46,423 nt of DNA from Acidimicrobiia bacterium (GTDB lineage: Bacteria > Actinomycetota > Acidimicrobiia > Spongiisociales > UBA5794). Positions within the stretch are counted from its first letter, which is position 1. Every line of letters starts with the position of its first letter. The translations under genes were made by a program, and so were the position numbers. Shown piece after piece: positions 30,810 to 34,707 of this stretch. The notes below the pieces were generated by a model. That model searched no databases and was not told the DNA's origin. It worked only from the letters and a program-made list of their open reading frames with translations. The stretch spans positions 1 to 46,423 of the forward strand of contig DASWKR010000006.1 in assembly GCA_036396535.1 (NCBI GenBank). Direction: 5' to 3'.

Positions 30810-31871
30810 TCAGCGCGGCGGCGGTTGGAGCAATCCCGTCAGGTCGGCGGTCTCGGCGAGCGCCGCCAGCTCGGCGACGGTGGTCGGGGCGTCCTCGAGC
30901 CAGGGGATGGCGTGCACGTCGGTGTGGTGCCGCATCATGAGCTCCTGCTTGGCGTCCTGCGTCTTGCGAGCCTCGTCTCCCCAGCGGCGCAGGTTCTCGC
31001 GGAGGATCGCCCCTTCCTCGGCGTCGAGCCCGGCGATGGCCGGGAGCCGCTTGGGCGCCATCCACTCCTTCGGGAGGTCCCGGTTGAAGATCGTGGCGGC
31101 CGGGGTCACGGAGATCTCCCCCAACCCGCTGTAGAAGCGCCTGACCTCGCGCAGCGAGGCGGGAGCGGCCGTCGTCACGACGAGCGTCGTTGCCGCTCCG
31201 AGGAGGCGCTCGATCGAGCGGGCGCGACTCGAGAGCCCGTCGTACAGGGTCCGCAGATCGAGTAGGAACTCGGCGATGTCCTCGAGGAGCGGGCCCCCGA
31301 GGACGCTGTCTGCGACCCGCAGCATCGGCCGGGCGGTGACGCGGTAGAGGGCCCGTCTCCCCGGCAGGCTGGCGCCGGTCAGCCAGCGCAGCAGTCGCCC
31401 ACCGACGAGCTCACGCATGCGCCGCGGCGCCAGGTAGAAGTCGAGGCCTCCAGCCGACGGAGGCGTGTCGACGATGACCAGCTCCCAAGCTCCGCCCTCC
31501 GAGTACTCCGCCATCTGCTCGCCGGCCGCGTAGGCCTGGGCTGCGGGGAAGCGGTCGGCGATCGCCCTGAAGAAGGGGTTCGACTCGAGTCTGTCCGCCA
31601 CCTCCGGGGCGGCGTGGCGATGGACGATTGCCTCCCACGAGGCGGTGATGTCGAGCATGGCGGCCCACAAGCCATCGGTCCCCGGGACCATGGAGGGCTG
31701 GTTGCCGAGCGAGTCGACGCCGAGCGCCGAGGCGAGCCGCTTGGCCGGATCGATCGTCACGACGAGCGTTCTCGTGCCTGCCGCGGCGGCACCGATGGCC
31801 AGCGCCGCCGACACGGTGGTCTTGCCGACGCCCCCGGCTCCGGTGACGACCACGATGTGTGTCCTCGTCAC
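30810..31871 (-). CDS. ArsA/GET3-like ATPase, subunit without signature lysine
   Basis: A 353-residue P-loop ATPase of the ArsA/GET3 (anion-transporting/tail-anchored-protein) group. The P-loop is GAGGVGKTT at 11-19, with Ala12 where the deviant Walker A motif normally has its signature lysine. Other marks are VTIDPAKRL and the DTPPSAGGLDFY loop. The GTG at 31871 gives GTGA overlap with the upstream ATPase gene and suits GAGGAG as ribosome site; a GTG at 31877 is an alternative. The pair resembles the paired GET3-like ATPases of mycobacteria (Rv3679/Rv3680), so a heterodimer is inferred. Arsenite transport is not implied, as no ars genes are near. Confidence 0.85.
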   Translation of the reverse strand: MTRTHIVVVTGAGGVGKTTVSAALAIGAAAAGTRTLVVTIDPAKRLASALGVDSLGNQPSMVPGTDGLWAAMLDITASWEAIVHRHAAPEVADRLESNPFFRAIADRFPAAQAYAAGEQMAEYSEGGAWELVIVDTPPSAGGLDFYLAPRRMRELVGGRLLRWLTGASLPGRRALYRVTARPMLRVADSVLGGPLLEDIAEFLLDLRTLYDGLSSRARSIERLLGAATTLVVTTAAPASLREVRRFYSGLGEISVTPAATIFNRDLPKEWMAPKRLPAIAGLDAEEGAILRENLRRWGDEARKTQDAKQELMMRHHTDVHAIPWLEDAPTTVAELAALAETADLTGLLQPPPR

Positions 31872-32731
31872 GTCCACTCCTCTGCGAGACGGGCGGCCAC
31901 CTCGGGAGGGGTCATCAGGCCGAAGAGGAACGGGAGATGCCCGCTGGAGTCGAGCTCCGGCAGCAGCTTCTGCTGGCTCTCGTACAGGCCGGCGTGCAGT
32001 TGGGCAGCAGAGCGGTGCGGTCCTGGCGGGAGTGCCGCGATCCTCGACCGCGACATGCCGAGGTCCGGCAGCGTCCTGTTGAAGACCACTCCGGCGATGG
32101 CTACGAGCTGTTCGGCCTCGATCGATGCGACCATCTCCCGCGTCTCGACGACCGGGAGCTCGTCCGGAGTGGTGATCAACAGCACTCCACAGGCGGCGGC
32201 GTCGGAGAGCGTCGCCCTCATCCGCTCCGCCTGGTCGCGAACTCCCCCCGACGGCACGATCGAAGCGATGGTGGCCGGGGCGCGCAGGTACGACCCGAGC
32301 TGTCCCGTCGCAGGGGCGTCGACGATGACGATGTCGTAGTCACCTCGCCACGTCTCGTAGATCGGCTTTCCCATGGAGATGATCTCCCTGACGCCGGGGG
32401 CCGTGTCGACGAGCACCTGCAGCATCCGGCTGAGCTGTCGCGTCGGGGCGGCGCGCGGCACCCTCATCTGGATCCGCAGGTATTCGTCGAGGGCATGGCT
32501 GCGGTCCACGAATGCTGCCTCGACCCCGGGGAGCAGCTCGTGCGCCTTCGGGGTCAACTCCTCGGCGCCGAGATGGGTCGCCAGGCCGATCGGGTCGGTC
32601 ATGGCGAGCGCCAGGGCCCGCATTCCGCGGCGGGATGCGACGTGGGCCAGTGAGGCGACAACGGCGGACTTCCCGACACCCCCCTTCCCGGAGACGATGA
32701 GAAGCCTGCGGTCGAGTGGCGTGGCGTCCAT
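31868..32731 (-). CDS. ArsA/GET3-like ATPase, subunit with signature lysine
   Basis: A 287-residue P-loop ATPase, first gene of the pair. The deviant Walker A motif GKGGVGKS (15-22) is complete, with signature Lys16 and Lys21. The Walker B-like stretch IVIVDAPATGQLGSYL follows. The ATG at 32731 is preferred over an upstream GTG (32773), because a -10-like TATCCT (minus strand, 32748-32743) lies between them. It is translationally coupled to the second ATPase (GTGA). The substrate is unknown. Confidence 0.85.
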   Translation of the reverse strand: MDATPLDRRLLIVSGKGGVGKSAVVASLAHVASRRGMRALALAMTDPIGLATHLGAEELTPKAHELLPGVEAAFVDRSHALDEYLRIQMRVPRAAPTRQLSRMLQVLVDTAPGVREIISMGKPIYETWRGDYDIVIVDAPATGQLGSYLRAPATIASIVPSGGVRDQAERMRATLSDAAACGVLLITTPDELPVVETREMVASIEAEQLVAIAGVVFNRTLPDLGMSRSRIAALPPGPHRSAAQLHAGLYESQQKLLPELDSSGHLPFLFGLMTPPEVAARLAEEWT

Positions 32732-32828
32732 GGCTCGAGGCGAGGATAGGGTGTGCGCCCCCGGGGTCGGCACGCAGGGGAGCGGCTCGCCGTTACCCTC
32801 CGACCTGCTCGTCCGAGGAGAGAATCAC

Positions 32829-33054: not shown

Positions 33055-34707
33055 TCACTCGGGGTCGGAGACGCCGAGCGCCGCTCTCTTGGCGGACGCC
33101 CGCCGCTCGCCCTCCAGCCTGGCGAGGTCGTAGCTGTCGTGGTCCACGTACGACATTGCCGCCGCGATGAGCGGATGTCTGTCGGCGATGAGGTCGTGCA
33201 TTCGCTGACAGACCCGCCGGTAGTCGGGATGACCCCCCTGGCCGCTTCGCAGCTCGATGAGGTGGAAGGCCTCGCGAGCGTTCATCTGCATGAAGAAGCG
33301 GATTCGGTATGCGAAAGGCACGACGTATTGGGCGAGGTCGTTGCCGTGCAACGCGGAGACGGCCCGGTGCAGGTCGGCGGTTCGGTCCATCGCCTGGCGC
33401 CACACCGAGTCTGCCCCGATGTCCGAGATCGCATCAGGGGTCACGTAGCCGTGCTCGACACCGAGCCGCTGCCAGTCGATGGAGAGCATCCGATGCCGCT
33501 GCAGGTCACGGAAGATGCCGTAGTCGCAGAGAACGTCGAAGCGGTAGTCGCACCGCTCCATGCCGCGTCCCGGCTTGTGGCGGCGGTTGGTCCGGTCTCC
33601 GACGTACGAGCGGATGAGCGCCGCCCGGTCCGCTTCCGCCAGGCGGCGTACCACCGTGAGGAGCTGGTCGTCGGGAAGGTCGCTGTACGCGTAGAGGGCG
33701 GCAGCCGCGATCTTCGTCTCCGCCTCCTCGTCCCAGTCGACGAGGGTCACCTCGGGGCGCGGTTGCGCCTCGGCCGTGATGCCGGCGGCGTGACCGTTCA
33801 TCGTCGAAGCGATGTCTGCAAAGTAGGTCGACCAAGCTCCGCCGCGCTCCGGGACGTCGACGCGCCGCAGGAAGGAGGGGATCACCTTGCGCAGCTCGGT
33901 GAGCATCAGGTCGGCGTAGTCGCGTACCTCGGCGAGCGCGTGGGCCCTCATGCGAAGGATCATCATCTCGTACGCCTGCCCGGTCGCGAAGATCCCGACG
34001 TTCGAGAGCGTGCCGGCCGGCAGCAGTCCCCGCAGGTCGTCGCACGCCTTGGCCCTGATCGTCGAGCGCCATATGAAGTTGGAGTCGTCCTCCTGCTTCG
34101 GGTACAGCGTCTCGTAGTAGGCGACGAGCCGCGGGACGAGCTCGGCGTACGTGTCGAACAGCCACTCCATGACCTCCGTGTACCGCCCTTCGAGCGCCGT
34201 CCCGATGAGCTCCGGGGGCGTCATGTAGCGGTAGCGGTCTCCCAGCCGGACGTCGTAGAAGATGTACCTCGTCGACTGCTCGAGGTATGCGGCGAGGCGG
34301 CCCCGCTCCAGCACCTTGGTGAGGACGTTGGATGCCTGCTCGCACGCCAGGTGGGCGCCACCGAGTTGGGCGACCGAGTCGTCGCCATACTCGGAGAAGA
34401 CCCTCTCGTACAGCTGCTCGGCCCGCTCCAGGTTCACCACGGATAGGTGCTCGTCCTCCCCTCCGCCGAGAACGGCCACCCCGACGTCCGGCGCGTCGTA
34501 GAACTCGTCGAGGAAGAGCCGGCGCAGCGACTTGGGCGACCGGGAGTAGCGGGCGAAGAGGGCTCCCTTGACGACTTCCGGCAGGTTCGTCACCGCGAAC
34601 ACCGGTCCGTCGACGTTCGTGAAAAAGCGACCGAGGACCCGCCGCTCGTCCTCCGTGAACGCCTCTTCGTGGTAGCTCGCGGCGCGGTCAGGCAGCGTCG
34701 TCGTCAT
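33055..34707 (-). CDS. double-length ThyX-like (FAD-dependent thymidylate synthase fold) protein
   Basis: A 550-residue protein with two ThyX-like halves; ordinary ThyX has about 250 residues. ThyX makes dTMP from dUMP with FAD and methylenetetrahydrofolate, using the motif RHRxxSxNExSxRY. In the first half the motif reads RGRLAAYLEQSTRY (135-148), keeping ExSxRY but not RHRxxS. In the second half it reads RHRMLSIDWQRL (404-415), keeping RHRxxS but losing SxRY. Large ThyX-like proteins are known in several phyla. Whether this one makes thymidylate is uncertain. The ATG is at 34707; a -10-like TACGGT lies on the minus strand at 34750-34745. Confidence 0.8.
   Translation of the reverse strand: MTTTLPDRAASYHEEAFTEDERRVLGRFFTNVDGPVFAVTNLPEVVKGALFARYSRSPKSLRRLFLDEFYDAPDVGVAVLGGGEDEHLSVVNLERAEQLYERVFSEYGDDSVAQLGGAHLACEQASNVLTKVLERGRLAAYLEQSTRYIFYDVRLGDRYRYMTPPELIGTALEGRYTEVMEWLFDTYAELVPRLVAYYETLYPKQEDDSNFIWRSTIRAKACDDLRGLLPAGTLSNVGIFATGQAYEMMILRMRAHALAEVRDYADLMLTELRKVIPSFLRRVDVPERGGAWSTYFADIASTMNGHAAGITAEAQPRPEVTLVDWDEEAETKIAAAALYAYSDLPDDQLLTVVRRLAEADRAALIRSYVGDRTNRRHKPGRGMERCDYRFDVLCDYGIFRDLQRHRMLSIDWQRLGVEHGYVTPDAISDIGADSVWRQAMDRTADLHRAVSALHGNDLAQYVVPFAYRIRFFMQMNAREAFHLIELRSGQGGHPDYRRVCQRMHDLIADRHPLIAAAMSYVDHDSYDLARLEGERRASAKRAALGVSDPE

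Follow-up and report, generated by a model that had tools for sequence, protein, structure and literature searches.

ThyX is both a drug target and a model of how active sites can be shared, and in its 222-symmetric tetramer each site draws three roles, which we call A, B and C, from three different subunits. The single-domain enzymes (ThyX/FDTS, PF02511; for instance, T. maritima TM0449 and M. tuberculosis ThyX) are homotetramers in which one chain holds all of the roles, giving four equal sites. In the Mtb and Hp enzymes (Mtb numbering), the FAD of subunit A is bound by that subunit's RHR motif, with B contributing Ser71 and Arg190; dUMP contacts Arg95 and Arg199 from A as well as Ser105 and Arg107 from C, and Tyr108 of C serves as a lid (PMC6514825). 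The folate histidine, H53, is supplied by a third monomer (PMC11940539). PolB, a UMP/dUMP methylase of antibiotic biosynthesis with the ThyX fold, is also a one-domain homotetramer and holds its substrate with two monomers (Arg82, His83, Arg86 and Arg193 of one; Glu94, Ser96, Arg98 and Arg166 of another), and the A and C roles are patterned on it (PMC5003785). In T. maritima numbering (TM), we label RHR and R174 as the A role, ExSxRY and R147 as the C role, and the FAD/folate loop as the B role. In single ThyX, H53, R78, H79, R80, S88, R90, Y91, R147, R165 and R174 all stand in one chain (25/25).

Proteins with two such domains have been noticed before. In the part of their 2009 paper that concerns it, Valas and Bourne mention a duplicated ThyX in Chloroflexi and leave it uncharacterised (PMC3224940). 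Compared by that description, it has two Thy1 domains per chain, like the protein reported here, and the description includes no partition of active-site residues (PMC3224940). Our literature search found no further paper on duplicated ThyX and none on such a partition. Fused "thymidylate synthases" also occur in phages and plasmids (Tunturi_5, BONAISHI, Microcystis phage LMM01 and Paenibacillus/Bacillus plasmids); they are around 18-41% identical to our protein, those that we read divide their residues in the way described below, and most have His at TM H53, where the clade studied here has Asp.

The gene in question lies at 33055..34707 on the minus strand of the window, that is, the whole stretch of 46,423 nucleotides of Acidimicrobiia DNA that was analysed, and is an open reading frame with an ATG start that encodes 550 amino acids. 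Two neighbouring ArsA-type ATPase genes (30810-32773) lie downstream on the same strand. Pfam matches PF02511 (Thy1) in two stretches of the protein (whole-protein E = 8.6e-45, 153.3 bits): half 1 (33874..34434, minus strand) covers PF02511 positions 34-191 with an E-value of 1.6e-19, and half 2 (33172..33747, minus strand) covers positions 1-190 with an E-value of 2.8e-23. In the genome search, half 1 alone scored 70 bits and half 2 alone 82.3 bits, so each half separately, as well as the whole protein, passes the curated cut-off of 24.8 bits, which bears out the earlier note's proposal of two fused ThyX folds in one protein. Half 1 of the family profile also matches Mtb ThyX (E = 1.1e-22). 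A direct hhalign comparison of half 1 with half 2 gave no match, and their relation is seen via single ThyX, to which each half aligns. TIGR02170, the NCBIfam ThyX equivalog, gives 80.6 bits, under its cut-off of 87.9, and the unbroken motif RHRxxSxNExSxRY is absent. Given the lack of these two defining features, the protein, though a member of the Thy1 superfamily, is better classed as a two-domain variant than as canonical single-domain ThyX.

Full-length or near full-length relatives were found in 59 of 198 Actinomycetota genomes, its own included, at 41-100% identity. The earlier note had located two halves of the ThyX signature, and both are where it placed them in the 550-residue translation: RGRLAAYLEQSTRY at residues 135-148 (34264..34305, minus strand), in which E143, S145, R147 and Y148 correspond to TM E86, S88, R90 and Y91, and RHRMLSIDWQRL at residues 404-415 (33463..33498, minus strand), which retains RHR and has lost the ExSxRY part. 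As had been claimed, ExSxRY is found in half 1 only and RHR in half 2 only, and in 59/59 family members each domain holds one part of the motif, with no unbroken copy. R137, Y141, L142, E143, S145, T146, R147 and Y148 in one half and R404, H405 and R406 in the other are invariant in the 59 aligned full-length members, and, on the evidence of this alignment, the half-motifs are thus not due to chance. The split is real as far as the motif goes, but it is wider than the motif to which it had been confined: TM R147 accompanies ExSxRY and TM R174 accompanies RHR, and although these two arginines lie around 60-100 residues off in sequence, they are split along with the motif halves.

To map the remaining positions, each half was aligned as a profile to single ThyX with the T. 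maritima enzyme as anchor; the reference sequence of that enzyme equals that of PDB 1kq4 except at one position near the C-terminus. Half 1 supplies the C-role residues as E143, S145, R147, Y148 and R226, all of them in 59/59. R226 (34030..34032, minus strand) corresponds to TM R147, which contacts the dUMP phosphate, and is also kept in 37/38 rows of a more divergent alignment; the matching position of half 2 is Y461 (Tyr in 57/59 and 37/38), and the other C-role positions of half 2 are W412, R414, G416 and V417. Conversely, the A-role residues TM R74, R78, H79, R80 and R174 are R400, R404, H405, R406 and R487 of half 2, again 59/59 each. R400-D401 (33505..33510, minus strand; 59/59) stands at TM R74-Q75, on the dUMP phosphate side, and has equivalents in PolB (PMC5003785), and R487 (33247..33249, minus strand; 59/59 and 38/38) corresponds to TM R174 (Mtb R199), which acts in uracil activation. 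In half 1, TM R74 is Lys, H79 is Gly, Pro or Ser, and R78 is mostly Trp. TM R80 (R137, 59/59) and TM R174 (R252, 54/59) are still Arg in half 1 of this clade and not in the divergent set, so half 1 of this clade has not shed every A-role residue. Thus, all of the A- and C-role FAD/dUMP residues, which the fused protein shares with single-domain ThyX, are present and divided between the halves, with Asp in place of TM Q75.

The B role is also assigned to half 1. Its loop, D109-S111 (34375..34383, minus strand), corresponds to TM H53-T55 and includes the counterpart of Mtb Ser71, S111, which is invariant in both sets (59/59 and 38/38). Position 109 (34381-34383), equivalent to TM H53, is Asp in 59/59 of the Actinomycetota fused proteins; the divergent set has His there in 32/38 rows. 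At TM R165, half 1 carries Gln (Q244) in this clade and Arg in 27/38 of the divergent rows. As read from these positions, the B role is partly altered in this clade. Structures of a T. maritima H53D mutant exist (4kar and 4kas). Outside the Actinomycetota clade, half 2 keeps none of the TM T55/S111, H53 and R165 positions. Half 2 of our protein has in addition a basic patch without counterpart in single ThyX, RTNRRHKPGR (residues 372-381; 33565..33594, minus strand), which follows the pattern RxNRRHxPGR, with R372, R375, R376, P379 and R381 in 59/59 and G380 in 58/59, and which may bind FAD phosphates. Taken together, the alignments indicate that the partition spans the whole active site, with the tested A-role residues in half 2 and the C-role residues and B-role loop in half 1.

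The structure prediction of the full chain that had been proposed gave a confident model with two ThyX domains. With a 3-row alignment, AlphaFold2 reached a pLDDT of 39, and a 38-row alignment was then used, which gave a pLDDT of 89.8 and a pTM of 0.87. The order of strands and helices is alike in both halves of the model: in half 1, strand 117-126, helix 127-133, strand 140-143, long helices, strand 233-242 and helix 243-254; in half 2, strand 387-395, helix 396-403, strand 409-412, helices, strand 467-476 and helix 477-487. Residues 316-525 of the model, in half 2, align to T. maritima ThyX (1o26_A) over 193 residues at 2.5 Å (Z 17.9). In the VIA-align structure list for the whole model, matches from half 2 fill the list and half 1 is absent; because the list is filled in this way, that absence is no evidence against a ThyX fold for half 1. 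With Foldseek, the whole chain matches the model of a 461-residue viral protein (TM-score 0.66/0.77), a fold match to LMM01.

The same division is found far from the Acidimicrobiia. Plasmids of Euzebya, Miltoncostaea and Parabacteroides encode fused proteins with it at 43-50% identity, Paenibacillus/Bacillus plasmids and jumbo phages do so at around 23-25%, and most of 43 further viral loci show it too. The Parabacteroides distasonis copy (L101, 46% identical) is carried by NZ_OY725790, a 278-kb plasmid in Bacteroidota, far from the usual hosts. Scans of viral contigs with the single Tunturi_5 or BONAISHI protein gave no matches, but alignment queries did find loci. In two phage ORFs of around 900 amino acids (L119:1-2694 and L120:46-2775), half 1 is interrupted exactly at its FAD/folate loop by an intein-like insert, which starts CYDEETDVLT or CYDEKTEVLT and ends VSGN or ISGN, just before SVAEH. 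In the 38-row alignment of Actinomycetota and phages, which spans 18-64% identity, just eight columns never vary (S111, E123, E143, S145, R147, R404, H405 and R487), and the invariance of RHR and ExSxRY is partly selected in the divergent rows that came from two viral scans, one made with a half 1 or half 2 peptide and another with peptides including EYSQRYQ; S111 and R487 are in no selection pattern, and both halves were never jointly required. In a tree of the halves, built with a quick method and showing long branches, all half 1s group together (SH-aLRT 100, or 98 without motif columns), as do all half 2s (99 with and without them). Since each kind of half forms its own group with or without the motif columns, the simplest reading of the sequences would be one fusion before the spread.

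The distribution of thymidylate synthesis genes among the carriers is informative as well. No separate single ThyX was found in the 59 carriers, in which the Thy1 stretches are only the two from the fused gene. One genome (G040, with 5% contamination) has two fused copies, L007 and L066, and hence four Thy1 stretches; the copies share 61% and 54% identity with the window protein. ThyA and FolA are absent from 58/59 carriers. The exception, G129, the only carrier with either, has a FolA gene adjoining a 74-residue ThyA fragment (C181:2540-3746), and this contig is probably foreign. The fused gene and any ThyA match are distributed against each other with a Fisher p of 1.2e-8, treating genomes as unrelated, and the 17 genomes with a strong ThyA all have FolA (17/17). 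Another genome of the same order, G177, encodes ThyA and FolA and carries no fused gene. As single ThyX, ThyA and FolA are missing in 58/59, the fused protein is very probably the thymidylate synthase of its carriers; the earlier note's refuting case (homologues without either half-motif, alongside a normal synthase) is not seen, both half-motifs being retained in 59/59. Thymidine kinase is missing in 42/59 carriers. The suggested search for thyA or a standard thyX in the protein's own genome, which is 96% complete, ruled out a normal synthase elsewhere in it. Because that genome encodes a thymidine kinase, it could rely on salvage, and the argument for the synthase is weaker for this genome alone. 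Five genomes without the fused gene (G051, G039, G009, G075 and G162; a weak ThyA match in G162 only) encode proteins of around 290-300 residues with weak Thy1 matches (L094, L095, L096, L097 and L098, respectively). These look circularly permuted, with THRxFSRNSxSSRAIP near the N-terminus and ARCARVSYLTHDG..PPHWSPLEHVATP, the normally N-terminal part of ThyX, at the C-terminus.

We consider it very probable that the protein is a flavin-dependent thymidylate synthase in which two fused ThyX domains share the work of one active site, acting as a homodimer with two sites; what we infer here includes FAD binding, dTMP synthesis, the dimeric state and the spatial arrangement. Given that the residues kept by each half are the ones contributed by a particular subunit in crystal structures of ThyX, a composite active site built from both halves, as the earlier note had suggested, is strongly supported; one chain would probably not suffice for it, as the B role is also assigned to half 1. 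The surface of half 2 would hold FAD and activate dUMP (R74, D75, RHR 78-80 and R174, T. maritima numbering), while half 1 would give the dUMP-binding lid loop (E86, S88, R90 and Y91, plus R147) and also the loop on the FAD/folate side (T55, beside H53, which is Asp in this clade). With half 1 taking the B and C roles and half 2 the A role, the only fit in a 222 tetramer would be a pseudo-tetramer of two chains, with the half 2 domains at A and D and the half 1 domains at B and C. Each homodimer would then have two complete sites, on A and D, and two dead ones, and each working site would combine both halves of one chain with the half 1 domain of its partner. Most likely, neither half could work alone.

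Alternatively, the composite site might be formed within one chain, the active unit being a monomer or a different dimer, with a B role that is dispensable or is taken over by half 2 through R381 and R478. Within this clade, half 2 indeed has R478 at TM R165 (59/59), where half 1 has Q244, and the TM T55 position of half 2 is taken by R381 (59/59), which lies in the nearly invariant basic patch. Outside the clade, however, neither R381 nor R478 is conserved, and half 1 keeps the subunit B contact S111 throughout the 38 rows and Arg at TM R165 in 27 of them, so we regard this arrangement as rather unlikely.

The shared-site synthase also has to be weighed against readings in which dTMP is not the product. 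The earlier note had raised a new function on the ThyX fold, and an enzyme that acts on or makes a different nucleotide, for instance by methylating UMP as PolB does or by yielding a modified thymidine, would be consistent with the accommodation of UMP by the ThyX fold in PolB (PMC5003785) and with the Asp that replaces the folate histidine in this clade. Nevertheless, the fused protein is the sole candidate thymidylate synthase in 58/59 genomes, 42 of the 59 lack thymidine kinase, and FolA is missing, as ThyX chemistry predicts; the protein occupies the place of ThyX or ThyA, which leaves a new function unsupported and this reading improbable. Two decayed halves without catalysis, retained for structure or regulation, would account for the essential residues missing from each half alone, but the losses are complementary, which rules out mere decayed copies, and, in genomes with no other synthase, no residues of the family are more strongly conserved than the catalytic ones that are left, making this reading very improbable indeed.

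If the protein is the dimeric synthase that we favour, it would have two sites per dimer, in contrast to the four equal sites of single ThyX. Since H53 is Asp in 59/59 and the basic patch of half 2 is nearly invariant, it is conceivable, albeit doubtful, that one-carbon uptake has changed in the Actinomycetota clade and that an effector binds in the vacated pseudo-sites, which would make for an asymmetric ThyX that handles folate differently or is under allosteric control. With the roles fixed in different halves of one chain, each would be separately mutable, which is impossible in a homotetramer, and the family would illustrate a route from a symmetric to an asymmetric oligomer by fusion and complementary loss. 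The same fused design recurs in large phages, and the division is kept in distantly related bacteria too. In many deep-branching actinobacteria without ThyA, single ThyX or FolA, fused ThyX is probably the source of dTMP.
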